Positions 29,164 through 50,790 of a stretch of DNA of 64,000 nt are shown piece after piece. The DNA comes from Pseudoalteromonas piscicida. GTDB taxonomy: Bacteria; Pseudomonadota; Gammaproteobacteria; Enterobacterales; Alteromonadaceae. Both the position numbers and the translations under genes were made by a program. Position 1 is the stretch's first letter; every line of letters starts with the position of its first letter. Location: the NCBI RefSeq assembly GCF_000238315.3, contig NZ_CP011925.1:558001-622000 (forward strand). Reading direction: 5' to 3'. The notes below the pieces were generated by a model, which worked only from the letters and a program-made list of their open reading frames with translations, searched no databases and was not told where the DNA came from.

Positions 29164-31641
29164 ATGAAAAGACTAACCCCAATTACCCTTGCTATGGTAG
29201 CAAGCTTTACTACGAGCGCGTTTGCTCAACAAAGTGTTTCATTAAATAACAACGAAATGCTATCGACTGCATTGATAGAACAATTAAATAACGACAATAG
29301 CTTGTTTAGAACGGCGCAAACAGATACTGGTCTAGCATTTGAAACACATAGCGTTGCTGCCGGTGGTAAACATCAACGCCGCAGCCAATACTACAAAGGT
29401 CTTCGAGTATATGGCGGTGAAATAGTTACACATCACGATACCAGTCAAACCACTTTCGGCTGGCTGCAACCTGCGCATAAGATTGTCGATATTTCGGGTC
29501 GAGTTATCACTGGCTTAACACTCACAGAAGTTACCCCCTCGCTTGATGAAGCGTCAGCATTGAGCATCGCTAAATCACATACAAGTAAAAGTATCGAGCC
29601 TAGGGAGCAGGACATTGAGCTAATTGTGTATCCGCATGGAAGTGCTGTAAAGCTTGCGTATTTGGTTACTTTGCTAATTGAAGATAGACACGGAAGCACT
29701 CGTCCAGAGTACATTATTGATGGTCACACTGGGGATATATTGTCACACCACGACACCATTAATCACAGTACTGCGCTGATGACAGGTCCAGGAGGGAATG
29801 AAAAGATTGGTAGAGTTGAGTATGGCGTTGACCGCCCTGCAATTAAGGTGGCGGCGCTGGCAAACGGCCAATGTCGGATGGAAGATGACAAAATCAAAGT
29901 CATTGATATGCAGCATGGAACGACCAATACCAGTGCTTATGAGTTTCGTTGTGGCGAGAACAATCATAAGTTTATAAATGGGGCTTATGCGCCGCTCAAT
30001 GATGCTTTATATTTGGGTCGGATGACACAAGAGATGTTCGCAAATTGGTACGGCATAAACCAGATTCTTCCTCATAAGCTGGTGATGCGAATCCATTATG
30101 GCGATAACTACGCCAATGCTTCTTGGAATGGCAGAGAAGTCACGTTTGGGGATGGTAACAGCGTTGTGCATCCACTAGTATCGACGAATGTAACTGCGCA
30201 TGAGGTAGCACATGGCTTTACTTGGAACACATCAAAATTGGTGTACCAAGGTCATTCAGGTGGCGTCAATGAGTCATTTTCTGATATGGCGGGCGAAGCA
30301 TTGGAGTGTTATTTAAATCAGAACTCTGATGGTTCATGCATCGTTGACTGGCAGCTAGGTAAAGATATTCTTAAACGTCATCATGGTGCATTGAGGTATT
30401 TTGATAAACCAAGTAAAGATGGTCGCTCAATTGATCATGCTGATCAATATACATTAGGATTAGATGTCCACTATAGCTCAGGCGTGTTTAACCGTGCGTT
30501 TTATCTACTATCTAATAGCCCTGGTTGGAATGTGCGTAAAGCCTTTGCTGTGATGGTAGAAGCCAATCGATTTTACTGGGTTTACAACGATGACTTTGAT
30601 GCACTCGGCTGTGGTGTAACCAAAGCGGCTAGGTCGTTGGGGTATGACACGGCGGCAATTGGTGAAGCGTTTTCACAAGTTGGTGTTTACACGTGTCTAA
30701 ATAACAAAACACCGACCATTCAGCTCAGCGCACCAGCTGATCAGAGTCAGCATGTAATTGGCAGTGAAGTTGTATTAAGTGCAAATGCACAAGACGAATT
30801 TGGTGAGGTTACTCGAGTTACTTTTGAGGTCAATGATCAAATTATTGGTAGTGTGACTCAAGCACCATGGCAATTGACTTGGAATGCAGAACAAGCAGGT
30901 AAATATACTTTCTCAGCACAGGTTACTGATAATGAGGGCGCGACAGCTAAAACTGAACTTCGTCAATTCAGCGTCGTCAACCCTGACGATTGCACAACAC
31001 CTGCTTGGCAAGAAAATAGCGTTTACGTTAAAGGTGATAAGGTTGCACTGGCGGGCTTCGAATATACTGCTCGATGGTGGAACCGTTATCAAAATCCTTT
31101 AAAGTCGGGCACTTGGGGTGTTTGGAAAAAAGGAGTCGCCTGTGGTGGAACATCTGATGATGGAAGTGTTAATGAAAATCAGCCACCAACGCTTGATTTT
31201 ATCAAACCTACAGATGGGTATGTTATAGAGATTGGGAAGGCAATCGACATACAATTATCTGCCACTGATAGAGATAGTAAGATCGATACAGTCACTGTAA
31301 AAGTGAACGATACGCTATTAACCGAACTCCATAGTGCACCATACGCGTTTAATTATGTTCCTAACTTAACTGGGAGCTACATAATTAGTGCTGTTGCGAC
31401 TGACGATAGAGGAGCAAAGTCAAAGTATATTTCAAGGCGTATTGTAGTTGTAGATCCTGTAAAAGAGCCTAAGCCAAACTGTAAAGCTGAGCCTTGGAAG
31501 GCTTCCAATGTGTACCATAAAGGTGAGAGAGTAAACTATGGAGGCTTTTTATTCGAAGCGAAGTGGTGGACACGTAACCAGAATCCAACTCAGTATTCCT
31601 CTCAATGGGCGGTATGGAAAAAACTTCAAAAGTGCGACTAA
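29164..31641 (+). CDS. Secreted M4 metalloprotease with two chitin-binding modules
   Basis: A thermolysin-type zinc protease, 825 residues. A signal peptide (ending AFA) and an FTP/PepSY-type propeptide (residues about 22-210) precede the catalytic domain. His346-Glu347 and His350 lie in HEVAHGF, and Glu370 in GGVNESFSDMAGEA, giving the HExxH + E zinc site. DHADQY-type and HYSSGVFNRAFY motifs hold the catalytic His. Ig-like domains alternate with two CBM5/12 modules (YTARWWNRYQNP, FEAKWWTRNQNP). It is transcribed in the same direction as the chitinase after 122 bp. It is probably aimed at protein in chitin-protein composites. Confidence 0.94.
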   Translation: MKRLTPITLAMVASFTTSAFAQQSVSLNNNEMLSTALIEQLNNDNSLFRTAQTDTGLAFETHSVAAGGKHQRRSQYYKGLRVYGGEIVTHHDTSQTTFGWLQPAHKIVDISGRVITGLTLTEVTPSLDEASALSIAKSHTSKSIEPREQDIELIVYPHGSAVKLAYLVTLLIEDRHGSTRPEYIIDGHTGDILSHHDTINHSTALMTGPGGNEKIGRVEYGVDRPAIKVAALANGQCRMEDDKIKVIDMQHGTTNTSAYEFRCGENNHKFINGAYAPLNDALYLGRMTQEMFANWYGINQILPHKLVMRIHYGDNYANASWNGREVTFGDGNSVVHPLVSTNVTAHEVAHGFTWNTSKLVYQGHSGGVNESFSDMAGEALECYLNQNSDGSCIVDWQLGKDILKRHHGALRYFDKPSKDGRSIDHADQYTLGLDVHYSSGVFNRAFYLLSNSPGWNVRKAFAVMVEANRFYWVYNDDFDALGCGVTKAARSLGYDTAAIGEAFSQVGVYTCLNNKTPTIQLSAPADQSQHVIGSEVVLSANAQDEFGEVTRVTFEVNDQIIGSVTQAPWQLTWNAEQAGKYTFSAQVTDNEGATAKTELRQFSVVNPDDCTTPAWQENSVYVKGDKVALAGFEYTARWWNRYQNPLKSGTWGVWKKGVACGGTSDDGSVNENQPPTLDFIKPTDGYVIEIGKAIDIQLSATDRDSKIDTVTVKVNDTLLTELHSAPYAFNYVPNLTGSYIISAVATDDRGAKSKYISRRIVVVDPVKEPKPNCKAEPWKASNVYHKGERVNYGGFLFEAKWWTRNQNPTQYSSQWAVWKKLQKCD

Positions 31642-35182: not shown

Positions 35183-37849
35183 TTAATTACAGCTAGTCGA
35201 AATATGCCAAATATTGGGTAACGACTCTTGTAGTTTGCTTACTTGAGCACAGTCGATATTTGGGTTTCCATATAAACTTAAATATTCCAGATTGGTCAAA
35301 TCGAATAGCGGTGACAGATCTGAAATGTTGCTATAGTTCAACTCTAAACGGGTAAGTTCGGCGTAATTTTTAATTGCACCATAGTTTTTCAGCTTGGTTC
35401 TATCCAAGTCCAAATAAATTAAGGTAGTAGGCAAGCCAAAAAGCGCGAAGTCATATACGGTTTGGCTATTTGTATTTAACTCAAAGGAGGTCAATGATTG
35501 AGGAAGTGTAGCTTTAGCCGTTAGTTCACCTGTGAGTCTATAGATGTCTAGATTCTGTAAGGTGTGGAGCTGAGCTAAGCTAGGATCTCGTAACAACGAA
35601 CTGTTAACTGAGCCATCCAGTGTTAAAGTCTTAATTGCTTCAAACTGTGTAATTCCATTTAATGATTCAATTGCTGAGGCATCGCAAGAGAGTGAGGTAT
35701 TACGCACAGCATCTTGGTATCTTCGATTTTCAATACATTCCTTAAATGCTTCATCGGTAATTAAGCTCAAATCGACCGGCTTCTTAATACAGTTAGAGTT
35801 AGAAAGATTTGTTGTTACACCATCGAGAGATTTTAATAGCTCCTGATCATCACAATAAATGGCACTACTTTGTATTTCAAGTCTTTCCAGATTGTTTAAA
35901 CTGGCAAGCATGTCTGCTCTAAAAAACGTAGAAAAGTTGCTTAATGTTAATGACTTCAATTTGTTTAATGATGCGATGCCAGAGATGTCAGCCGCTAGAG
36001 AGTAGTTAATAAACAGAGTTTCTAAGTTTTCAAATTGAGATATCTGAGTGATATCTTCTAGCTCTTTAAAGCCGCTGAGCTTGATCGATTTCAGGCTCGA
36101 GTTTGAACCTAGAGAATCGAGAGTTGTGATTTTCTCTTCATTATCATAATAGTGACCTTTTGATAACTCAACTGATTCGAGCGCGGGGAAGTTAGTCAAG
36201 TTCACCATGTTTGAATAGCTGCTGCCCTTCACGTTTAGTGTTTTTAAGCTTGGAAATGTTGTTTCACTTGAAGCTTCAAATAAACTAACTTCTAGGTTAA
36301 GTGTTTCTAATGCTTGCATTTTACTTAACGTATCTAGTGCAAAGTTTGAGTAATCGCTGTCGACGGTGAGGTCGCGCATATTTTTAAGCTCAGACAATGC
36401 GCTAAAATCCGCGTTATTATCCAATTCACGAATGTACAATTCGGTTAGGTTTGGTGTGAAACTTAGCCAACCTAAATCATTAATGTTATACAGGCTATTA
36501 AGCTTTAATGATGTTAGCTGCGGCATCGATTGCAAAAAGCTCAGAGAAGAAAGGTTTAATTCCTCCAAAGACAAAGATTGCAGCTCCGTAAAGGTTGATA
36601 GCTCACTGACATTATCAACACTTAAATTGTTTAATGACAGAGAGGTTAGCTTCGCATTACTACTGATGTCCGCAATATCAAACTCAACATTGCTATAATA
36701 AGTACTAAGACCTAGTTTTTCCAACTCACTAAATTTTTCTAAGAATGAGAAATCTTCAATCCGTGTTCTGCTGAGTACGAGTGTTGTCAGATTTGTTTTG
36801 GCTTCTATTGCTGTTGAATCAGCGGCTTCGATATTATTAAGTGTTAATGCTGTGAGGTTAGGTATGGCGCTTAAAAATGACAGCGAGTCCAGATCTTGTA
36901 TGTATGTCAAAGATAAACTCTGCAAGTTACTAAAGCGTTTTAGGGTACTTTTATCATCAATGCTTAGAGAACGTAGGGTCAAACGGGTGAGCTTATCACT
37001 TGGAAGTTCACTGAGCTGCATAGTTTCATATTGACTACTATAGTTTTCTATTTCAAGCGTCTGAAGCTGCGTAAAGCCTGATAGATCTAGTATCTGGAAC
37101 GCTAGGCGTTTGCCTGAACTATCTTCTTTGTTTTCAATAATAGACAAAGACTCAAGTTTGTTGAGCTTATTAATTTGTTCTAAACGTGCATCATTATTCG
37201 AGCTGTTCTGAGCTGCGGCAAATGCGTTATCGAGCTTTAACACGGTGAGCGGAGAAATTTGAGCTAACTCGTCGAGATTATTCAATTCTGCGTTTTTAAT
37301 AGACACGGTTGATAAGCCGCTAATACCTGATAGCCCCTCTAACGTTGCGACTGGGTAGTCTGTACAATCAACAACTGAAATACCCACATCTTGATGTGTA
37401 TCGGATAAACATTGCGCGAGCGCCGCGTCTGAAATCGTTAAGCTTGAGAGTGGAGCGTACGCACTTAGATTGACAGTTAACTCTTGTGAGCTTGAGGCCC
37501 CTTTGTCGTCTGTCGCGGTTAGCTTAAATGTTAGCGTGGTCGCTTCATTGATGTCAGGCGCACGAAATTCGAGCGTTTCGCTAGTGTTGTTTGTTAGCTC
37601 AACAGTTGTACCTGCTGTCTGCTCCCAAAGCAAAGTTTCAATCGCACCATCTTCATCAGTTACGGTCGCAACGGCTGTGATTGAGTCTCTTTCCATCACA
37701 GTAATTGGTGCTATAGTCGCAATTACTGGTGCTTTATTTTTTGATGTGACTGGTGTATCGCCTTTGTCACCGCCACTACCGCCGCAAGCTGCTAAAGTGG
37801 AGGTGAGTAATGAGGCTACGATTCCTTTGTATATAGCGCTTTTAATCAT
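35183..37849 (-). CDS. Leucine-rich-repeat lipoprotein
   Basis: An 888-residue exported protein. The signal peptide ends in the lipobox LAAC (Cys22), followed by a Gly/Ser/Asp spacer. An Ig/PKD-like domain (residues about 38-128, VIATIAPITVMERDSI to SSSQELTVNL) leads into two long blocks of internalin-type leucine-rich repeats, such as LTALTLNN, LKSLTLSNFS and LEYLSLYGNPNID. They are separated near residue 690 by a Cys-containing linker (CIKKPVDLSLITDEAFKEC). Its first block opens with a similar Cys pair (AQCLSDTHQDVGISVVDC), so the protein looks like two related halves. It is likely a surface or periplasmic binding protein; ligand unknown. Confidence 0.85.
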   Translation of the reverse strand: MIKSAIYKGIVASLLTSTLAACGGSGGDKGDTPVTSKNKAPVIATIAPITVMERDSITAVATVTDEDGAIETLLWEQTAGTTVELTNNTSETLEFRAPDINEATTLTFKLTATDDKGASSSQELTVNLSAYAPLSSLTISDAALAQCLSDTHQDVGISVVDCTDYPVATLEGLSGISGLSTVSIKNAELNNLDELAQISPLTVLKLDNAFAAAQNSSNNDARLEQINKLNKLESLSIIENKEDSSGKRLAFQILDLSGFTQLQTLEIENYSSQYETMQLSELPSDKLTRLTLRSLSIDDKSTLKRFSNLQSLSLTYIQDLDSLSFLSAIPNLTALTLNNIEAADSTAIEAKTNLTTLVLSRTRIEDFSFLEKFSELEKLGLSTYYSNVEFDIADISSNAKLTSLSLNNLSVDNVSELSTFTELQSLSLEELNLSSLSFLQSMPQLTSLKLNSLYNINDLGWLSFTPNLTELYIRELDNNADFSALSELKNMRDLTVDSDYSNFALDTLSKMQALETLNLEVSLFEASSETTFPSLKTLNVKGSSYSNMVNLTNFPALESVELSKGHYYDNEEKITTLDSLGSNSSLKSIKLSGFKELEDITQISQFENLETLFINYSLAADISGIASLNKLKSLTLSNFSTFFRADMLASLNNLERLEIQSSAIYCDDQELLKSLDGVTTNLSNSNCIKKPVDLSLITDEAFKECIENRRYQDAVRNTSLSCDASAIESLNGITQFEAIKTLTLDGSVNSSLLRDPSLAQLHTLQNLDIYRLTGELTAKATLPQSLTSFELNTNSQTVYDFALFGLPTTLIYLDLDRTKLKNYGAIKNYAELTRLELNYSNISDLSPLFDLTNLEYLSLYGNPNIDCAQVSKLQESLPNIWHISTSCN

Positions 37850-40073: not shown

Positions 40074-40147
40074 ACCTCAGCGGTTCCACAGCGCTTTTTG
40101 AGGTGACGCTTAATTGCGCCATAAAAGAAGCGAGGCTATATAGCCTC
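40074..40147. terminator. Two hairpins between convergent genes
   Basis: Hairpin 1: ACCTCA (40074-40079) with TGAGGT (40099-40104) plus an inner AGCG/CGCT pairing and a T-run. Hairpin 2: the perfect palindrome GAGGCTATATAGCCTC at 40132-40147. They lie between the lipoprotein gene and the end of the exported-protein cluster and could end both transcripts. Confidence 0.5.
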
Positions 40148-40221
40148 ATTGGTTGGAGAATAGAGTGGTAAGGACAACGGGTTAAGGGCGTGTGCTAGCG
40201 CGCTCCTTTTCCTGAAGTCGC

Positions 40222-41358
40222 CTAGTCAACGTTTGCGATTGCGGATTCTATACGATTTTCACAAAGGGTAGTACCGGGCAGTGTCGCACAGTATTCGCCA
40301 GCTTGCTCGAGTCCGATGCGCTGCGTATTACGGGCGGAAATACGAGCTGTAAGCTGTTCGATTTCAAGCGGGTCTTCAGACACAGCTTTAAATGCACTCA
40401 ACCTTTCTATTTCGTCATAAACTAAATCTTGATAACTTCTGAGTCTGGCAGACAGTGCAATATAGCGGTTAGATAGTGCGGTGTGACCAGCATAGGCGAG
40501 GTCATAATGGCCAGAGTCTTCATAGCTTTCGACTTCGTACTTTAAAACGTTTAAATGTTCGTCTTTAAGGTCGTCGACATACTCTCCACCGTCTAGTAAA
40601 TAGCTAAATAAATTGTCGGCGTAAGTAATACAGGGAGTTAGATTATCGGTTTTGCAGTGCATGGTGCCATTTTTACTGAGTCTAGCGAGTTCTGGCGTCA
40701 TACCCCCATCGGTATTCACCTGAATCGTATAGACGGCATCTTTGGTTGCCTCTTGAAATACTTTGGTTTTAGTAAAAGTTTTACTGAAAAAAAGAAATTT
40801 CACTTTGATTTTGGTCTGAAACCATTCGTATTTTGTGCGATCTTTAAAATGGAGTTTAGCGGTAACATAGATACGAGAACCAAGTTTGATATTGTGGATG
40901 AAGCTGTCACCACAGCGGTTTCTTACCTGAGTCGGATCTGTACTGAGCAGCTCGACAAAAGCGGGTTTGGTGGTTCGATTTTCAAAGTTATAACTTCCTT
41001 TTTCATAGGTTAACTCGACCGCCGAGGCTGCTGAATTTCTATTTTTGGTTACTTTCCTGCGCATGGAAAATTTGGCTGAGCCACCAAAAATAACTAAGTT
41101 GATACCAGCCTTTACACTACCTGTAATGGTATTGATCATGGTGTCGGAGTCAAAATCGCCACGATAAGCCAAGTCGCCCATGCTACCACCCTGAAATTGC
41201 CACTGACCATCGAGGCACGATTCAAGCGGTATGCCTAATTCCTGTTCAAATCCCTGCCCGAGTTGTTCATGCTCAGTATTTAAAGAGTAATAGGTATGTG
41301 CATTTGCATAAAAGCTTAACAGGCCACAGAGCACTATTAATATGGTTCTTAAGTGCAT
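40222..41358 (-). CDS. Exported MACPF/CDC-like protein C (third paralogue)
   Basis: A 378-residue protein with a signal peptide (ending YANA, about residue 20); CTACAGGAATTTATGT precedes the ATG. It aligns by eye with the two paralogues upstream: an early GSMGDLAYRGDFDSDT region, GDSFIHNIKLGSRIYVTAKL where the others have GDGFISEIEYGAQLLI, and VNTDGGMTPELARLS where they have GGDPKQLLSI. The position of GD-x-F(I/V)-x3-I-x2-G and the amphipathic stretch after it match the MACPF/CDC core as seen in stonustoxin-like proteins. The C-terminus is helical. It is the last gene of the cluster, 122 bp after the preceding one. Pore formation is a hypothesis. Confidence 0.5.
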   Translation of the reverse strand: MHLRTILIVLCGLLSFYANAHTYYSLNTEHEQLGQGFEQELGIPLESCLDGQWQFQGGSMGDLAYRGDFDSDTMINTITGSVKAGINLVIFGGSAKFSMRRKVTKNRNSAASAVELTYEKGSYNFENRTTKPAFVELLSTDPTQVRNRCGDSFIHNIKLGSRIYVTAKLHFKDRTKYEWFQTKIKVKFLFFSKTFTKTKVFQEATKDAVYTIQVNTDGGMTPELARLSKNGTMHCKTDNLTPCITYADNLFSYLLDGGEYVDDLKDEHLNVLKYEVESYEDSGHYDLAYAGHTALSNRYIALSARLRSYQDLVYDEIERLSAFKAVSEDPLEIEQLTARISARNTQRIGLEQAGEYCATLPGTTLCENRIESAIANVD

Positions 41359-41480
41359 ACATAAATTCCTGTAGATGGTTTACTGTGGGAGAGGCGAAGA
41401 AGTAATAATTCAATGTGCGATTGTTTATTACTTGCCACGCCTCAATTGGACTAATTGAGTCTTAGCGTTTTTACTACTCA

Positions 41481-42989
41481 CTAATTTTCAAAAGCGGTTC
41501 CATAGGTTGGTAGGGCTGATTTACATGGTAGCCAAACCATCACGCCCGCAGCTGGGTCATTTGCATCAACAAAGGAAGGCGCCCAGCCCAACTGTCTAAA
41601 CCCAAGTGATACATGATTTTCTTCAACACCAAAGTTTGCTGTTGCTTCTCGGGCATTTTCACATTTGAAGTATTGCGTCATGTTATCAGCTGGTATATTC
41701 AGATCGGCAAGCGTGTAGTTTTGTATGCAGCCGACACCACTACCACTACAGGTATTTAGATAATCGTTCCACGCATCTGTACAAGCTGTACCATAAGGAT
41801 TATCGCGACAAACTCGAGCATATTGCTCATAAATCCATGCATTGTTGTAAGCGGCTTCTTGTACGCCTTCTGCTTTTTGACGTTGTACATCCGTCATCCA
41901 ACTAGCGTATTGCGCAAGTACACCACGCGCACGGTGTTCATGATTAACCGACTTTTTGAATTGATCTTCAAGCCATAAAGTACGGTAAGTGGTTTCAAAG
42001 CGAATATCTTTATTACCTGAATCTAAACGACGTACATCTTGTGAGCTGATCTCGTAAGGCGTTGCCTTGTAACGCACTACGTTGTAATCAGATAGCGCAT
42101 TAAACTGATTACCAAAGTCGTTTTTCGCATAGTTCACCGCTTGCTCAAATAAAGTAAAGCAAGGCTCGTAGTTATCGAGTGAACAGGTGATAATATTGTT
42201 AGGGATTATGCTGAGAAGCTGTTTAGGATCACCGCCTTTTTGTAAAGCTCTGACGGTAATGCGCACACTTTTCTTAAGGTCTTCGTCGATATAATTAAGC
42301 TTACCATCGACGCTAATGCCAATATTACCAGCACCGTAACTTACCCCTAAGTAACCGCCAATTTCACTTTTGTGCTGCTCACTTAAGTATTCAATTTTCA
42401 TGTTAATGAGTAGCTGTGCACCGTATTCAATCTCACTGATAAATCCATCGCCTGCCATGCTCATTAGTTTACTTTGATATTCATTCGCTAACGTATTACC
42501 TGACGGGGTCAAGGTGTAACCAATGTTGGCATCCGCTGGCATAAGTACACGCTTTTTCGGTGTTAATGATGCTTGGAAAGTATAAGTATTAGAAAACTCA
42601 GTCGAGGACATTTCTTTGGCTAAGTGACCGCCAGCTTTGACACGAATGACTGGAAAACCAACATCAACATCAACATTACCGTTGAGTTGACGGAGTACTT
42701 CGTCATAGCTGCCATTGTTTACTAGTTCAAATTGCACTCGGGTATTACCGAGAGTCTCAATTGTTTCCCCTGCGACAGTTTGAACATTCAAAAAGCGTTT
42801 TTGGTCGCTGTTATAAGCCGTACCTAGTACAATGTGATCGTTCATCAATCCAGGAATTTCGCTTTGAAAGGTATTCACATTTTGTGCTTTTTGCATTAAT
42901 TCCGCTTCGTTGACAAAATTGGAATCTGCGAATGCGAAAGGTGTAGTGCCGGCAATAAGTGCCGCGATAGTCTGTTTGTATAAGTTCAT
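41481..42989 (-). CDS. Exported MACPF/CDC-like protein B
   Basis: A 502-residue protein with a signal peptide (ending AFA, about residue 21); AGGTGG precedes the ATG. The central stretch GDGFISEIEYGAQLLINMKI, then a Gly-rich amphipathic region (ISVDGKLNYIDEDLKKSVRI) and ALQKGGDPKQLLSIIPNN fit the strand-turn-hairpin order of the MACPF/CDC fold, SNTX branch. About 40% of visible positions in this block are shared with protein A. A Cys pair (ITCSLDNYEPCF) follows in both. The C-terminal part (about 390-502) is Cys-rich and may be a separate binding domain. It starts 11 bp after the GEVED gene. Confidence 0.55.
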   Translation of the reverse strand: MNLYKQTIAALIAGTTPFAFADSNFVNEAELMQKAQNVNTFQSEIPGLMNDHIVLGTAYNSDQKRFLNVQTVAGETIETLGNTRVQFELVNNGSYDEVLRQLNGNVDVDVGFPVIRVKAGGHLAKEMSSTEFSNTYTFQASLTPKKRVLMPADANIGYTLTPSGNTLANEYQSKLMSMAGDGFISEIEYGAQLLINMKIEYLSEQHKSEIGGYLGVSYGAGNIGISVDGKLNYIDEDLKKSVRITVRALQKGGDPKQLLSIIPNNIITCSLDNYEPCFTLFEQAVNYAKNDFGNQFNALSDYNVVRYKATPYEISSQDVRRLDSGNKDIRFETTYRTLWLEDQFKKSVNHEHRARGVLAQYASWMTDVQRQKAEGVQEAAYNNAWIYEQYARVCRDNPYGTACTDAWNDYLNTCSGSGVGCIQNYTLADLNIPADNMTQYFKCENAREATANFGVEENHVSLGFRQLGWAPSFVDANDPAAGVMVWLPCKSALPTYGTAFEN

Positions 42990-43000
42990 GTTGCCACCTA

Positions 43001-43840
43001 TTACTTCACGTAAAGGAGGTAATCTTCTACCTCTCCGGAGTCTACTTCTTTACATGCGTCATTGCTGCCACCCAAGTAATCCATGGTAACGCGCATTTTC
43101 GTCATGCCCTTTTTAGCGCCCGTTGGCGGTGTAATTTCTACCTGAACGGCTTGTTCTGAAACACCTGCGAATAAGGTTTCTTTTGTATCGTTAAAATCAC
43201 CATCTTGGTTCCAGTCAATAAACACATGCCAAGTTTCCGGGTATGTTTCTGCACTACTAAATCCTGGGGTTAACGTTAACTGGTAGCTTCTATCGGCATA
43301 TATTTTCGCAGTATCACCAACATAGTTACTGTAAAAGGTGTTGCTACTGGTGTTTTCAAGATTAGAAAACTTGACTGATTGGATAAACTCATAGGCACGT
43401 TCACGAGACTTAGTGGCGCAGTAGTTCGGCATTGCAGGTGTAACCATCACCGCGCTTATGCGATAATCTGATGGGATCTGCAAACAAGAAGTCGTTGGTG
43501 ATTTACCCGCAAACCAGTTCTTTGGATTCGCATTGTCTTCATCTCCAAAGGTAAGGTATTTTGCATCAGTCCTGAGGGTACTATTTTTGTATAGCATTAC
43601 TTTTTTAAGATTTGCTATTTTCTCATCATTTGGAATGGGAGTTGTGGGATCAAAGATATTATCAGAGACTTCAACCAACAACCCTGGGTAGCACTTTTCC
43701 AACCATTGAAAGCGTCCTAACGCTTGCTGTGGCGTAAGTACATCTCGAGATTCAAATAAAGTCGTATTTGCCTGCGCTGATGGTGCTACTGTCGCAGCGA
43801 ATGAGGCAATTAATGTGCTGGTTAGCATGACTTTTAACAT
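43001..43840 (-). CDS. Exported GEVED-domain protein
   Basis: About 279 residues from the ATG at 43840 (AAGGAATAAGACT upstream); a longer frame to 43867 has no better site. The signal peptide ends SAQA. The C-terminal half is a GEVED domain: WHVFIDWNQDGDFNDTKETLF and SGEVEDYLLYVK. The same domain occurs twice in the M4 protease at the head of this cluster. The N-terminal half is unrecognised. GEVED domains are common on secreted bacterial enzymes and adhesins and probably bind a carbohydrate or calcium. It lies 11 bp from both neighbours, between two MACPF/CDC-like genes. Confidence 0.7.
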   Translation of the reverse strand: MLKVMLTSTLIASFAATVAPSAQANTTLFESRDVLTPQQALGRFQWLEKCYPGLLVEVSDNIFDPTTPIPNDEKIANLKKVMLYKNSTLRTDAKYLTFGDEDNANPKNWFAGKSPTTSCLQIPSDYRISAVMVTPAMPNYCATKSRERAYEFIQSVKFSNLENTSSNTFYSNYVGDTAKIYADRSYQLTLTPGFSSAETYPETWHVFIDWNQDGDFNDTKETLFAGVSEQAVQVEITPPTGAKKGMTKMRVTMDYLGGSNDACKEVDSGEVEDYLLYVK

Positions 43841-43851
43841 AGTCTTATTCC

Positions 43852-45099
43852 TTATAATTCTAGCCATTTACGGTCATACTGATGAACGCGGCCACGAGTC
43901 TGTAGCTCTCTATCGCGACAGTAATTACCAATTGGATTACGCTTACAATAATCAACGGCGTCTGCCAGAATAAATGAGTTAAAGAGCGCATTATCGCGAA
44001 TGGTTTCTAATGCAGTTCGATGTGAGTTATTCAGCTCACTGGCGTAGTAATTGAGTAGGTTATCGGCACGACGATTGTCGAGAATTGCCTGTACCCAATC
44101 ATCACTCATGTTTTTCAAAGCCAACTTAGTCAAGATGCTTTTGGCAGGATAGACATCATCAGGTACTAAGGGAGATAGGCTTGGTCCAGAGTCGGTATAA
44201 CTTTGTGTTAAGACTCGACCAACGTTGTATTTATCTAAGGTATCAAACTGAGTAACGTAGTTAGTTTTGATGTAATCGATACTGTTTTTAAACACATCAA
44301 AGCATGGTGTTGGGTTTTCCATCGTACAGTTGACGAGCTGATTGGGGATCACCTTCAATAGTTCAGTTGGATCACCACCAAGCTGTAGCGCAGAAACGGT
44401 AATTTTGATGTTACGCTTCACATTTTCGTCTACTTTTTGCAGTTTACCACTGACACTGACTTTACCCGCCCAGTCCACACCAAGCTGACCCCCCCATTTG
44501 ACTTTGTCTTCGTCATTTTTATATTGGAACTTGAGGTTGATCATAACTTGAGAGCCGTACTCAATCGCTGATACAAACTCATTACCAATATTATTGAATT
44601 TATCTCCAGGGTTAGCATTGACCAAATCAAGCGCAGCTTGTGTAGGTTTAAACCCGGTTTGAGGATCCGCAACTAACAGCCGTTTTTTTGGTTTTAAGGA
44701 GAGAAATAGGGTGTAAGTGCCAGTGTAGTTATCTGCGGCGTTTTGTTTTGCGTAGCTTGCGCCAACGCCAACTTTTATGACTGGAACATCAAGTGCAGCG
44801 CCTAAATTACCATCTAGCATACTAGATAGTTGGCTATAGCTCATATCTACACCAACGACAAAATCCATTTCGGTATTGCCATAGGTTTCATCAACTCGGC
44901 CAAGCACACTTTGCAGTGCATAAAAACCTTCTTTTTCACTATGGTAAGCAGTACCGAGTGTCACTGAGTCTAAATCAGAGTTATTTGCTTGGGTAGTGAA
45001 CTCTGGATTAGCAATTTGATCAGCAGTAGCTGAAAAACTGCAGGCAAAAAGTCCCATTACCCCCATGGCACGTGCCAATGGAGAATATATAAATTTCAT
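43852..45099 (-). CDS. Exported MACPF/CDC-like protein A
   Basis: A 415-residue protein with a signal peptide (ending SATA, about residue 26); AAGGAATTCAAC precedes the ATG. The N-terminal part (VTLGTAYHSEKEGFYALQSV) parallels B's IVLGTAYNSDQKRFLNVQTV. TYTLFLSLKPKKRLLV is followed by FVSAIEYGSQVMINLKFQY, VSVSGKLQKVDENVKRNIKI and ALQLGGDPTELLKVIPN. This order, an ExG-type strand then a charged amphipathic hairpin and a helix with the NCTMENPTPCF Cys pair, is how I relate it to MACPF/CDC proteins of the SNTX type. No family search was possible. Confidence 0.55.
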   Translation of the reverse strand: MKFIYSPLARAMGVMGLFACSFSATADQIANPEFTTQANNSDLDSVTLGTAYHSEKEGFYALQSVLGRVDETYGNTEMDFVVGVDMSYSQLSSMLDGNLGAALDVPVIKVGVGASYAKQNAADNYTGTYTLFLSLKPKKRLLVADPQTGFKPTQAALDLVNANPGDKFNNIGNEFVSAIEYGSQVMINLKFQYKNDEDKVKWGGQLGVDWAGKVSVSGKLQKVDENVKRNIKITVSALQLGGDPTELLKVIPNQLVNCTMENPTPCFDVFKNSIDYIKTNYVTQFDTLDKYNVGRVLTQSYTDSGPSLSPLVPDDVYPAKSILTKLALKNMSDDWVQAILDNRRADNLLNYYASELNNSHRTALETIRDNALFNSFILADAVDYCKRNPIGNYCRDRELQTRGRVHQYDRKWLEL

Positions 45100-45155
45100 G
45101 TTGAATTCCTTACTGAGAAGTATGGCCCCTCAATAGGAGAGGCCAGAAGCAGCGA

Positions 45156-47102
45156 TTAGTTCAGGCTGTTGATGTAGTCTGTTTTCCACTTTTCAGGAAG
45201 ACGTTGGAGGATCTCTTCTTCTGACATGCGTACGTCCTGATCTTTGTAGTTAAACTCATCTTGTGTAGCAAGATCGCCTACCGCCATACCATTAGCAAAC
45301 ATGGCAAAGTTACGTGACTCAGCTAGTTTAGAATCTGCTGTTGGAGCAAGTTTTAGGTTATAAATCTTGTCGCGATACTTCTCTTTAGTCACGCTTGTTA
45401 CCAGCACCGATCCATTCTCAGTTAAGATACGATCGCCAACTTTTAGCTCTTTCGCCCAAATAATTCCTTTATTTGAGGTCGAAATTGGGTGAGTCTCGGT
45501 AGTTAAGATATCAGAGCCATCTGCGCCTTTTACGCGATACATCTTGATAGCTTCAATCCCAACCGACACATCAATAACTTGCATTGGTTCTTTAACTTGG
45601 GTATTCGAAGCAAGTGCACCTAATACCAAATCGCCTTTCGCAATGTCTTCAATAGCAAGTTGTTTGCCATCGGCCATGGTGATCATTGTGCCTGTAGCTA
45701 GACAGCTATAACCTAACTTCATCATAGGTAATACTTCACTATAGAAGTTACCAAAACGCGTTGATGTTTCTGACGTTAGTGAAACTTGGAATGCAACGGC
45801 ACCACCACGTCCTTTCTTAAAGTACGGATAACCTTTAACAGCAAAGGTCATATACCAGTTTGCTTCAGCGATGTTTGAGAACAGTTTGGCATTACCAAAA
45901 CGGCCCTCAGAACGTGGAATATTCCAACGGATAATCGACTCTTGGTTTACTGTATCAACTTCGAACTCCAAGTAATCGGAAAATTGCTTAACCGCGTTTT
46001 CGAGCCCTTTATAGCTTTGCTTTGTCGCGCCGCCATAGATACCTTCTTGTAGATAGATATTCGTTGGTTCATCTATACCGTTTGGCAAATCGCCTACAGT
46101 TGGATAGATTTCAGTGATTTCGTGAGGAACACGTAACTCGCCGTTGAATGGGATATTTACATCGGTAATTTCATTCGGTTCACGGTATTGATCTGCTGCG
46201 TAATCACAGTCAGTATGACTACGGTTTAAACAGATTTTAATAACCGCGTCGTTGTTTTTATCGATTGGCGCAGTCGCATTATACTTCGGACGTGTATCCA
46301 AAGATGAGCTGATCCCTACGTTAAGTGCAGAAGCCTCACCTTTTGCAGCTGGTGTAGCAGAGCCATACAGCGCTTCAAAGTGCTCCCATGAGAACGGGTA
46401 TTCAGTGTACTTCATCGTCGTACTGATAGTGCCATCTTCTTGCTCTAGTTCAACGTATGAACTTGCGTAAATGATATCTAGGTTGGGAAAGTTTGCTTTC
46501 AATGACTTCAGTGAAATAGTCGAAGTTGCAAGTGTGTCTTTACCATCTAGTACATTAAATGTAGAACCTAAAGGCGCAAGCTGATTACCATTTGCATCTT
46601 CTAACAACAAGTCGATGTAGGTCGCCTTTGTACCACCAAAGCGTGAGCTTTTTGCACGTACAATGAGATAAGGCTCGTTTGTATCAGACGAAATAGCTAA
46701 GTTCATATCCAAGAAGAAATGTGCTTCTTTAATGATATCCACTTCAGTTTCACTAACTGGCGGCACTTCAGAGGTGGTCATATTCATTTTGGCTGATAAG
46801 TGCTGTCCTTTTGCTACATCTAGCGTTTTGTGTAGCTGTGGGAACTCGCTCTCAATACGGTTTGCTTTTATTAAGCGTGACTTCGCCAATTGATAGTGCT
46901 GCGGATTGGACATATCGAGTTTACGGATCCCGAATTGGTCTGGCTGAGTTACTGCAATACCCTGGGTTGCAGCAGGCCCAGACTTCTGTTTCGACGCCGT
47001 GGTAGTTGGTTGTTCATTAACACTGTTGCTAGCAGCAACCGCATTGCTGACTGCTAACGCGATTGCAAGCGGCATGAGCACCTTTTTGTTTAGTTTTTTC
47101 AT
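45156..47102 (-). CDS. Exported protein with C-terminal Hint (intein-like) domain
   Basis: A 648-residue protein with a signal peptide (ending VAA, about residue 23); AAGGAAAATAAA precedes the ATG. Residues about 100-460 are an unrecognised beta-rich region. A Hint domain starts at Cys467 (SCLATGTMITMADGKQLAIE, GDLVLG), continues with TTETHP (His538, block-B type) and WAKELKVGDRIL, and closes with FANGMAVGD near residue 604. The terminal Asn plus Cys/Ser/Thr of true inteins is missing, as in bacterial intein-like and Hedgehog-type Hint domains, so N-terminal cleavage or transfer rather than splicing would be expected. A 40-residue tail follows. It sits 10 bp after the M4 protease gene. Confidence 0.8.
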   Translation of the reverse strand: MKKLNKKVLMPLAIALAVSNAVAASNSVNEQPTTTASKQKSGPAATQGIAVTQPDQFGIRKLDMSNPQHYQLAKSRLIKANRIESEFPQLHKTLDVAKGQHLSAKMNMTTSEVPPVSETEVDIIKEAHFFLDMNLAISSDTNEPYLIVRAKSSRFGGTKATYIDLLLEDANGNQLAPLGSTFNVLDGKDTLATSTISLKSLKANFPNLDIIYASSYVELEQEDGTISTTMKYTEYPFSWEHFEALYGSATPAAKGEASALNVGISSSLDTRPKYNATAPIDKNNDAVIKICLNRSHTDCDYAADQYREPNEITDVNIPFNGELRVPHEITEIYPTVGDLPNGIDEPTNIYLQEGIYGGATKQSYKGLENAVKQFSDYLEFEVDTVNQESIIRWNIPRSEGRFGNAKLFSNIAEANWYMTFAVKGYPYFKKGRGGAVAFQVSLTSETSTRFGNFYSEVLPMMKLGYSCLATGTMITMADGKQLAIEDIAKGDLVLGALASNTQVKEPMQVIDVSVGIEAIKMYRVKGADGSDILTTETHPISTSNKGIIWAKELKVGDRILTENGSVLVTSVTKEKYRDKIYNLKLAPTADSKLAESRNFAMFANGMAVGDLATQDEFNYKDQDVRMSEEEILQRLPEKWKTDYINSLN

Positions 47103-47112
47103 TTTATTTTCC

Positions 47113-50100
47113 TTAATTCTTATAGATTTCTACAAGGTAGTCTTCAATTTCTCCGCTCCCCGAGGTCGCGGCACTGCTATAGTCAGAGCAAGGATCGATA
47201 CTATTCACTCTGCTAAATCCGTAATACTGCAAAATTCTCATTCGAGTCGTTGTGACAGGTTGTGACAGCTTATTGCTTGGAATGCTAAATTCACCCTCAA
47301 CATAGCCTTTACCGTAGTCTTGGTTAGTTTGGTCAAAATCCATAACCAGCAACTCTGATTTGTTGTTTCTCCAATCGCCATCGCCAAATTGACCGTCGCC
47401 GTTTAAATCTATCCAGATGTGGTAGTTTTCAGCGAAGGCTTCATTGCCTGCATAACCTGCCTCAATACGATAAGTATTATTCTGTGTGGCATAGAGCTTA
47501 ATTGGATTGTTAGGATTAACGACACCAGGTTGCTGTGCATTGCTAAATGGACCATCTTGATTGAAAGTCACGTTACTGATGTGTTCATAATCGGTCAGAC
47601 CTACAGCCGTGCAATATTCAACAGGTTGTGTTGATTTAAGCTCTAGCAGCATATTTTTGGTACCTGTAACTCGGCTTCCCCAATCATCCCAAATAGGTTT
47701 GTTGTAACTAATAGTTAGGCTTGCGCTAAAGTTACCTGCGGCTTGATAGGTGTGTTCGGTGTCTTGGCCAAAATTACCAGTTTGCGTAAGTGTTGAGCCA
47801 TCTCCAAAGTTCCATTCCAATGTTACATCTGGGTATCTTGCAGCATTATCAGGTTTTGTGGTGGTATTACTGAAGCTGACCTTAAACGTACCGTCTGCTT
47901 GTTCGCTTACCGTGTAGCTCACATCAGGCGTAAAGCTCGTCTCGCCAATTTTCACTGTTTCAGTGGTAGATTGTGTGCCATCAGCATGATTAATTGTGAG
48001 TGTGATCGTGTACTCGCCATCGGCTTGATAGGTGTGCTGAGTGTCTCTTACCGAGGACGTGACACCATCTCCAAATTGCCACTGTATTGTGCTACCTTTA
48101 GGGATAACACTCTGATTTGTATCTACATAAACAGTACTACCGGATTTACGAGGTGTGAACCTTGCCGTGATAGTGGTGTTAAACTGAACTTGTTTGTTCC
48201 AGCTTCCAATTATCTTGTTGAATCTGTCATATGCTTTTAGTTCGACCGCATAGTTGCCAGATTGCGCATATTGGTGAATAGGCGACTTTTCACTACTGGT
48301 TGTGCCATCGCCAAATTTCCAATGCCAACGTTTAACACGTGCATCGACAGTATTGTTTTCAAAGCTAATCTGATTGACACCTTGGCTTGTGCTGATCCTT
48401 AAATCAACAGGATCTGTGTTTTCAATGAGCTTCACTGTGTAGTCTTCAACTTCACCCCAAGACATGTCGCCACACGCGGATTTCACTAAACCAAATGACA
48501 CCATAGTTCGAAGGCGGTAGCTTTGGTTTAGCTCACCACTCAATGAGATCTCGCCAGTCAATTGCGTTTTACTGCTGCCAAAAAGTGCGAGTTCTTCCGT
48601 CTTATGAAATAAGCCATCATTATCTTTGTCTAACCAGACATAAAAGTTCTTTGTCTTGTCTTGAGTATCTGGGTGGGGTGCTGCGGTTAGCGTTACATTG
48701 AGTGCTTTACCATCCTTAACTTCGACTACATCATGTGAGTAGTCGCTATAATTGCTTGATGTAGAATCGTTTTTGTAGCTGTTCAACGAAACTGATGATA
48801 AGTAGTACTTGCTATGATTGATGCCTTGCGCGGGGCAATAGTCGTCAAAAACTTCAATAGGCAGCATAAAAGTATCAGACTGACCAGAGGGGGCGATGGC
48901 GGTCAGTTCAACATTGTATTCGCCCGCAGTAGTATAGTTGTGTGTAGGCTCAAAGGCGCTACTTTGTGCACTTCCATCACCAAAATTCCACTGCCATTGC
49001 CAGCCTTCGCTGTTACTAGCCGAAACTTGCTGGCCGTCACGGCGGGTTAAGTTCTTAAAGTCAAAAGCTAAGAATTGACGATCAAAGCCAAGTTCACTCT
49101 CGAGTCCACGGTCTACCTTCAAACCTATACCGACTTGTGCAAATGCCTTACGTACGTGGTTTTGTAAATCAGTAGCTTGCCAGTTGCTACCATCTTGCTT
49201 TTTAACGCCATCTTGAGTCAGCTGATCAGTTACCGTGTGAGTTTGTCTCATTACACAATCAGCACCAGTAAGATAAGTACTATTGCTGGTCCAGCAGTTT
49301 TTATTTGCGTTAGCAAACAAGATAAAGGCGTACTTTGTATTCCACGGTGAGGTTTCGTTGTCTAGATCAGCAGTCGTGAGGTAATAAAAAGCTTTGTTAA
49401 ATACGCCTGCGCCATGGTGAGAAGTGACTGAGTCGTCATAGTCCTCAACATGATCAATCGAATTTCCATCTAGCGTAGGAGTTTTGAAATAACGCAGTGC
49501 ATCATCAAGGCGGAACGTTTCGTGATTACTTTTCCAATCATTCGCGCCAGAGTAGAAGAATTCAGCTGCTTCACCCGCCATATCAGAAAAGGCTTCATTG
49601 ATGGCACGAGCTTGACCTGTCAGCATTGATTTTGGCGTATTTGAGCCATACTCTTCGGTAAAACCGTGAGCGATTTCATGGGCGACTACATCCAAGGAAA
49701 CCATAGGGTAGAAGAGGTAGTCACCATCACCAAAATAGACCTCGCCATTTTCATAAAATGCCTGATCCATGTTTAGACCGTAATGGACATTTTGAATTAT
49801 CTTTTTATTAAAGTAGGGTTTATGTCCAAGATAAGCCTCGAACATCAAGCTTGCTGTTTGTCCATGATGATGAGCATCATTTAAGGCAGAGCGAGCGCCG
49901 TGATATTCTTTATAGTCATTGCGAGTTGAATCTGAGCAGTTATAGCTATAAGGCGTATTAACTTGCGCGGTACCGTGATTGTAGTTTCTGGTCTCAACGT
50001 TTTTTGCATCAAACAAGCAGTTAGTTTGCTGAGCATCAGTTTCCATGGCGACAACAAAGGTCTTTGGTGGGTAGGAAACGTAATCTGCTTGTTGATAATC

Positions 50101-50790
50101 TGGGCGTGAAACCTTGTCATTACCAGATGGTCCGCTTCCGCCTTCATACACAACGCGCTGCAATACATCTGATTGGCTGATAAGCTCGTTTGTTATTAAA
50201 TCTACAAAAGCAAGGATCCTTTGTGGCTTAAAAGGACCAGACTTAAAATCGGTGAAAAAAGTAAGCTTGGCAGCGTGTCGGGCTTTGCCATGAGCATCTA
50301 TATAAATTACTTCTTCTGCTGATGAACGTCTAAAAATTCTAGGGCGTTCACTGGTAAACTGAGAAATGACTGAGTCTAAAGTCGCGCTAAGTTGTGCTTC
50401 AGAAACAGGAGCGAGCGTGGGTATATCTTTAGCGACGTCAATAATGAGATCACCATAAACTTGCTCAACAGCGCCATTTTCGTCTGTCAGCACAACAAGG
50501 TCATGATTCCAGATTGGAATATTCTGGTACTTTTGAGTTATGGTATGGCTTTGCTTCGTTTGACCTACTTGGCTTTGGTGAAATGTAAGCGTGTGACCTG
50601 TGTATTGCGCTGCAAATGTTTTCAGCGTGAGTAGATAGTTTTGATTAGAATCATCACCAAATGTGGATTGTTTTTGTTGTAAAGCTGGCGCAATTTTCTG
50701 CGTGTCATTGAATAAAGAGACGCGTTCAGCGCCGTGACAATACATACTTATCGCTGATGCTAAAACGCACAGAGACTTTAACCCTTGCAT
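47113..50790 (-). CDS. Secreted M4 metalloprotease with four PKD and two GEVED domains
   Basis: 1225 residues from the ATG at 50790, preceded by ATGGAGTTAAC; an upstream frame to 50844 has no such site. A signal peptide and FTP/PepSY propeptide precede the catalytic domain with His371-Glu372 and His375 (HEIAHGFTEEYG), the third zinc ligand in INEAFSDMAGEA, and HHGAGVFNKAFYYL. Then come PKD 1 (WQWNFGDGSA), GEVED 1 (WGEVEDYTVKL), PKD 2 (WHWKFGDGTT), PKD 3 (IQWQFGDGVT), PKD 4 (LEWNFGDGST) and GEVED 2 (SGEIEDYLVEIYKN). It heads the cluster; processing of the downstream exported proteins is an attractive but untested role. Confidence 0.9.
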   Translation of the reverse strand: MQGLKSLCVLASAISMYCHGAERVSLFNDTQKIAPALQQKQSTFGDDSNQNYLLTLKTFAAQYTGHTLTFHQSQVGQTKQSHTITQKYQNIPIWNHDLVVLTDENGAVEQVYGDLIIDVAKDIPTLAPVSEAQLSATLDSVISQFTSERPRIFRRSSAEEVIYIDAHGKARHAAKLTFFTDFKSGPFKPQRILAFVDLITNELISQSDVLQRVVYEGGSGPSGNDKVSRPDYQQADYVSYPPKTFVVAMETDAQQTNCLFDAKNVETRNYNHGTAQVNTPYSYNCSDSTRNDYKEYHGARSALNDAHHHGQTASLMFEAYLGHKPYFNKKIIQNVHYGLNMDQAFYENGEVYFGDGDYLFYPMVSLDVVAHEIAHGFTEEYGSNTPKSMLTGQARAINEAFSDMAGEAAEFFYSGANDWKSNHETFRLDDALRYFKTPTLDGNSIDHVEDYDDSVTSHHGAGVFNKAFYYLTTADLDNETSPWNTKYAFILFANANKNCWTSNSTYLTGADCVMRQTHTVTDQLTQDGVKKQDGSNWQATDLQNHVRKAFAQVGIGLKVDRGLESELGFDRQFLAFDFKNLTRRDGQQVSASNSEGWQWQWNFGDGSAQSSAFEPTHNYTTAGEYNVELTAIAPSGQSDTFMLPIEVFDDYCPAQGINHSKYYLSSVSLNSYKNDSTSSNYSDYSHDVVEVKDGKALNVTLTAAPHPDTQDKTKNFYVWLDKDNDGLFHKTEELALFGSSKTQLTGEISLSGELNQSYRLRTMVSFGLVKSACGDMSWGEVEDYTVKLIENTDPVDLRISTSQGVNQISFENNTVDARVKRWHWKFGDGTTSSEKSPIHQYAQSGNYAVELKAYDRFNKIIGSWNKQVQFNTTITARFTPRKSGSTVYVDTNQSVIPKGSTIQWQFGDGVTSSVRDTQHTYQADGEYTITLTINHADGTQSTTETVKIGETSFTPDVSYTVSEQADGTFKVSFSNTTTKPDNAARYPDVTLEWNFGDGSTLTQTGNFGQDTEHTYQAAGNFSASLTISYNKPIWDDWGSRVTGTKNMLLELKSTQPVEYCTAVGLTDYEHISNVTFNQDGPFSNAQQPGVVNPNNPIKLYATQNNTYRIEAGYAGNEAFAENYHIWIDLNGDGQFGDGDWRNNKSELLVMDFDQTNQDYGKGYVEGEFSIPSNKLSQPVTTTRMRILQYYGFSRVNSIDPCSDYSSAATSGSGEIEDYLVEIYKN

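Follow-up and report, generated by a model that had tools for sequence, protein, structure and literature searches.

A conserved six-gene cluster of Pseudoalteromonas may encode a secreted, multi-component MACPF/CDC-like pore-forming machine

Six adjacent genes in the window (the whole stretch of 64,000 nucleotides that was analysed) encode a set of exported proteins that is kept together in many relatives. We consider it reasonably probable that the six genes form one secreted machine, a three-component MACPF/CDC-like pore that the M4 protease of the cluster would process. Such conservation suggests a weapon or membrane-opening machine of several parts that has yet to be described; its components A, B and C appear to be distant relatives of the human immune membrane-attack proteins.

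The genes lie on the minus strand in the order M4, HINT, A, GEVED, B, C, with gaps of 10, 56, 11, 11 and 122 bp (Table 1). A preliminary description had reported this layout, a ribosome-binding site before each gene and a signal peptide on each product. The open reading frame (ORF) listing bears out the layout and coordinates, a purine-rich sequence precedes all six chosen starts, and the six N-termini look Sec-type when judged by eye. In the ORF listing M4 begins at an upstream TTG (50844) and the GEVED gene at an upstream ATG (43867) that would overlap A. For GEVED the ATG at 43840 is preferred because AAGGA precedes it, and no ribosome-binding site was seen before 43867. Terminator-like sites in the region, the hairpin after C included, are about as many as expected by chance, and promoter and terminator counts there do not exceed those of shuffled sequence. 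Pfam assigns PF20009 to the GEVED protein, PT-HINT to HINT, and FTP, M4, M4_C, PKD (four stretches) and GEVED (two stretches) to M4.

Table 1. Features of the six-gene cluster (positions in the window)
Feature	Position	Strand	Description
M4	47113..50790	-	Thermolysin-family metalloprotease, 1225 aa
HINT	45156..47102	-	648 aa; beta-rich N-terminal region and C-terminal Hint autoprocessing domain
Hint domain of HINT	45252..45713	-	Residues 464-617
A	43852..45099	-	MACPF/CDC-like paralogue, 415 aa
Candidate TMH1 of A	44734..44841	-	Residues 87-122; placed by chain order and alignment to the Aeg-L pore; left unmodelled by AF2
Candidate TMH2 of A	44407..44523	-	Residues 193-231; charged amphipathic stretch
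Glycine pair of A	44374..44379	-	Gly241-Gly242, the GGDP of the preliminary description; invariant in A and B
GEVED protein	43001..43840	-	279 aa, counted from start 43840
B	41481..42989	-	MACPF/CDC-like paralogue, 502 aa; additional C-terminal stretch
C	40222..41358	-	Most divergent paralogue, 378 aa
Terminator-like hairpin	40131..40148	-	T-rich tail; directly 3' of C

The contig of the cluster, C2 (1.23 Mb), is one of two in a genome of 5.49 Mb. In Pseudoalteromonas flavipulchra (L009) protein identity is 99% across all six genes, and HINT is 97% identical to a P. piscicida HINT. Compared with P. fuliginea, the six genes have dN/dS values of 0.02-0.08 and are under purifying selection; the comparisons with L007 and L008 are partly or wholly saturated. 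No immunity gene was evident among the flanking genes, which are conserved only among near kin in a comparison where most loci of the GTDB scan extend little upstream of M4. Downstream of the cluster (window 35183-37849) lies a gene for a large exported protein of 888 aa, leucine-rich by eye, and such a protein is likewise found downstream in L007 and L009. Another M4-type protease gene, partial in the region read, occupies window 30013-31641.

The paralogy of A, B and C, also proposed in the preliminary description, is confirmed far above chance. When A was searched against its own genome, B was matched at E 2e-66 and C at 2.8e-8, with no other match at E<=0.001, and hhalign aligned the C profile to the A/B profile over 327 columns (98.9%, E 2e-17). 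The family lies outside existing domain profiles: Pfam gives none of the three paralogues a domain above cut-off, a search at E<=10 with MACPF (PF01823) and Thiol_cytolysin (PF01289) matched none of 47 A/B members and none of 16 C members, and PF01823 was not found in the own genome at E<=0.001. Several homologues of A are called 'internalin' by NCBI; Pfam finds no such domain. The NCBI record of the P. xiamenensis homologue of A says plasmid.

The assignment to MACPF/CDC comes from structure. An AF2 model of A retrieved 14 PDB matches at E<=0.001, 13 of which are MACPF/CDC by title. The best was the Aegerolysin-L (Aeg-L) pore, PDB 9uj0 (E 5.8e-6; 9% identity across the Foldseek alignment), itself taken as MACPF/CDC-like from the neighbouring matches in the search. 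The same entry was recovered when a wide profile of 16 divergent relatives was compared with the PDB (E 0.0033; next match 1.8). Searches of the PDB with the sequence of A, the A/B profile, the C profile or one single-gene relative gave nothing convincing. The fold matches have low TM-scores (0.17-0.28 normalised to the model, over 50 rows) and the model is of moderate quality; sorted by Z, its first rows are unspecific helix bundles. The VIA-align matches to the last 97 residues of A were likewise discarded as unspecific helix bundles. Against a profile of four Pfam-MACPF bacterial proteins, hhalign was weak for the wide profile (6.1%, P 0.0061); P values against the same kind of profile were 0.072 for A/B, 0.21 for C and 0.73 for HINT as control. 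The profile of the four proteins did not list 9uj0 at E<=1 in the PDB. The interpretation in the preliminary description, a multi-component secreted pore-forming system, is partly supported. The MACPF/CDC fold class is predicted for A from its model and extended to B and C through their homology to A.

Two segments of A are candidates for the hairpins that would unfold into the membrane (Table 1). High beta-moment windows fall in both segments for B and C and in the TMH2 segment only for A, whose TMH1 is unmodelled; the top windows also include others elsewhere in the chains. The glycine pair, placed after TMH2 from chain order, is present in all 47 A/B rows. Among the C rows, glycine occupies the first column in 15/16 and the second in 7/16, so that at most 7/16 keep both. 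Of the GGDP motif that had been described for all three paralogues, the glycine pair holds for A and B, and its second glycine is often lost among relatives of C. In a tree of 56 chosen proteins, C (93/67) and a set of four single-gene relatives (97/87) each stay together on one side. A and B form separate lineages, except for the distant L022 and the B's of the triplets; several branches are long and deep placements unsure. From these separate lineages, the threefold split looks ancient.

A contig scan of GTDB returned 22 loci, 17 of them in the order M4-HINT-A-GEVED-B-C. L023 has all six genes with HINT ahead of M4, C is missing from L024, and L025 consists of a single gene. The remaining two, L012 and L022, are A-B-C triplets, of which L012 begins inside A, where its contig ends. 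The A/B profile was found in 39/108 genomes of the genus, 15/295 of the family, 5/394 of the order and 7/369 of the class, in four overlapping surveys that each take in the window's own genome. HINT is also present in all 39 genus genomes with A/B, and in 49/49 places it immediately precedes A (same strand, match gap 0-250 bp; one A is a split gene). After removal of L084 (=L010), L107 (=L024) and L115 (=L011) as duplicates, the fetched loci, as distinct from unfetched genus-genome clusters, comprise 44 multi-gene clusters with the window included: 30 with six genes, nine without C and five A-B-C triplets. Near kin were retained, so these counts are not independent events; one G1311 cluster spanning L104 and L105 was counted once, L114 as six-gene and L113 as C-less. 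In these two loci B (L114:5301-6805) and A (L113:9238-10490), respectively, are each in two ORFs, by disruption or sequencing error. In the protein databases, scoring was limited to the ~8,000 candidates with most words in common with the query, and the alignment-based search there gave one further new protein. The neighbourhood survey finds the paralogues kept together with the protease and HINT in many species. Part of clade II has a small PKD gene after B or C. The triplets (L012, L022, L075, L076, L077) have no M4, HINT or GEVED match, and these three genes are therefore not essential to the A-B-C trio.

The M4 protein carries HEIAH (residue 371) and NEAFSD (residue 398), the HExxH motif with its downstream Glu. 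HExxH is kept in M4 wherever C is present (30 of 30 clusters). Of the nine clusters lacking C (L071, L106, L107 (=L024), L108-L113; L024 is the second P. rubra cluster), six have the motif broken and three have it intact, and the six also have Glu changed to Gln in the second motif. All nine have L024 as best match and a small PKD gene after B; they probably form one clade with few independent events of C loss and M4 decay, a view that rests on these best matches, with only L024 and L071 in the tree. Several clade-II M4 proteins from clusters with C, otherwise intact, have the third-motif His changed to Tyr. A broken M4 site was seen only where C is gone. On this reading protease activity would become dispensable without C, which would make C the likeliest substrate or partner of M4. 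Between the C-less L024 and L071, dN/dS is 0.21 for M4, 0.16 for HINT and 0.04-0.07 for A, B and GEVED, a comparison made unsafe by uneven dS. The C-less clusters with decaying M4 offer a natural experiment on which component the protease acts on.

HINT is, by predicted fold and conserved residues, a Hint autoprocessing protein. Cys467 and Thr535..His538, corresponding to Cys1 and Thr-x-x-His, are conserved. The C-terminal His-Asn of inteins and type A BILs is not found; it appears to be replaced by Gly609-Asp610, assigned to block G by reading of the ...FANG..V-GD end. In the alignment of 35 rows, Gly609 is kept in 34 and Asp610 in all 35, including P0076, the single row without a Hint domain. 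Such a replacement would suit a type that only cleaves and does not splice (PMC4031507). The HINT model also has weak structural matches of low TM, to RbmA, a biofilm scaffold protein (E 2e-5 to 3e-5), and to transglutaminase 3 (E 1.2e-5); they are taken to fall on the N-terminal half because other structures match the Hint domain.

HINT also occurs apart from the trio. A strong homologue (E 1e-48 or better) accompanies no A/B match in 7/108 genus genomes, and some of these homologues match residues 282-648 only. Five of the seven genomes were fetched (L098-L102), and HINT lies there between two M4-type proteases. L098:4696-18380 encodes, on one strand, Lcl_C proteins of 692 and 190 aa, an RTX-repeat protein of 629 aa, M4, the HINT homologue and M4; L099-L102 have ORFs alike in size and order to L098, whose domains alone were scanned, and no A/B/C. 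Such genomes speak for a portable M4-HINT pair with processing work in several exported systems and no particular link to a pore, co-located only for joint export. This reading is compatible with a pore; we regard it as possible if unlikely, given that HINT stands immediately upstream of A in 49/49 places, that M4 is present in all 39 clusters read that hold GEVED and that its site was seen broken only where C is absent. In L098, where A/B has no match, the pair's place beside the RTX-repeat protein and the Lcl_C proteins is also what would be expected if A, B and C had a MACPF/CDC fold but were non-lytic and built an extracellular matrix or adhesion layer together with M4 and the beta domains of HINT. 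PKD and GEVED domains are frequent on surface proteins, and the weak matches to RbmA and transglutaminase 3 point the same way. We nevertheless find a matrix role doubtful: A and B still carry the paired glycines, and relatives have lectin tails, which some pore-formers carry as well.

Those tails are C-terminal modules of distant relatives: Jacalin in two L022 proteins and, below threshold, ricin-B in L025; Fib_succ_major (L012, L075) and TPR (L078) also occur. The 2000-aa product of L081:6645-12647 combines many ASH/HYDIN-type Ig domains with an A/B/C-family stretch towards its C-terminal part. Relatives with no partner gene within the stretch read (L025, L078, L079, L081, L082, L083), together with the old divergence of the lineages, would suit three independent pore-formers with different targets that share only an operon. 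Two A/B-type genes are nonetheless found together in 44/44 clusters, joined by C in 35 (the 30 six-gene clusters and five triplets), and independence is in our estimate very unlikely.

If the preferred reading of a single secreted machine is right, the three paralogues would be long-separated members of a divergent bacterial MACPF/CDC branch that assemble into a mixed ring, each unfolding two amphipathic segments into a beta-barrel pore. Their roles would be unequal. A and B retain the glycine pair that serves sheet opening in MACPF/CDC proteins, and C, smaller and fast-changing, may start, cap or target the ring. M4 would process one or more exported proteins of the cluster, with C as prime candidate. 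HINT may cleave itself at Cys467, freeing its beta-rich N-terminal half or passing it on as a thioester, and the freed half may be a surface adaptor. The GEVED protein would be a small helper and the target cells would bear glycans. A bolder version, which we rate as rather improbable, joins a complement-like three-component pore of marine gammaproteobacteria to a thioester that the Hint domain makes of the N-terminal half of HINT, by which a beta-sandwich adaptor is released or covalently attached to a surface as in hedgehog proteins; M4 would license C, and the M4-HINT pair would be portable, also serving the non-pore RTX/Lcl_C system. If this were true, we know of no earlier pore-former coupled to Hint chemistry.

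Several known systems resemble the cluster in part. The cluster is not described in the titles and abstracts listed on Pseudoalteromonas pore-formers or on tripartite MACPF systems (10 of 86 for the latter), a scope outside which most subscription literature falls (PMC11112141, PMC11796346). For Mif1 of P. luteoviolacea, pore size has been compared with that of CDC pores (PMC11796346). The tripartite alpha-pore-forming toxins of Gram-negatives, AhlABC, SmhABC and MakABE, likewise have three components; they form ClyA-type helical pores, unlike the MACPF/CDC fold predicted here. Pleurotolysin B with aegerolysin and the complement MAC share a MACPF core and a membrane-bound partner that recruits the pore-former (PMC11169675). 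The cluster differs in having three paralogues and, by Pfam, no aegerolysin domain in its six proteins. The Aeg-L pore is the best match by both wide profile and fold, far diverged; its name did not occur in the 12 of 25 matching papers that were listed.

The closest functional analogue may be the CDCL toxins of Bacteroidota, in which two components and proteolysis yield pores that kill bacteria (PMC11169675). In both, paralogous genes of MACPF/CDC type lie side by side as pairs or triplets and the products are similar in size (CDCLs ~365 and 500 aa; here 378, 415 and 502). CDCL-short is among the best structural matches. CDCL pores depend on proteolysis, for which the linked M4 gene is only suggestive here; the B. 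fragilis CDCLs are activated by a C11 protease of the target cell, whereas the cluster has its M4 gene linked. CDCLs were found through PF01289, which A, B and C do not match, and for this reason the cluster is not filed as a CDCL. CDCL pairs were selected for lipoprotein signals, whereas the signals of the cluster are type-I-like by eye, and the sections on CDCL identification, activation and protease and the discussion mention no Hint or GEVED gene (PMC11169675). By analogy, the cluster may work like a CDCL. If the preferred reading is true, MACPF/CDC-like pore-formers reach a branch missed by Pfam profiles, and a bacterial multi-component membrane-attack candidate, encoded in one block together with its candidate protease and a protein that processes itself, is added to the few known complement-like bacterial systems.
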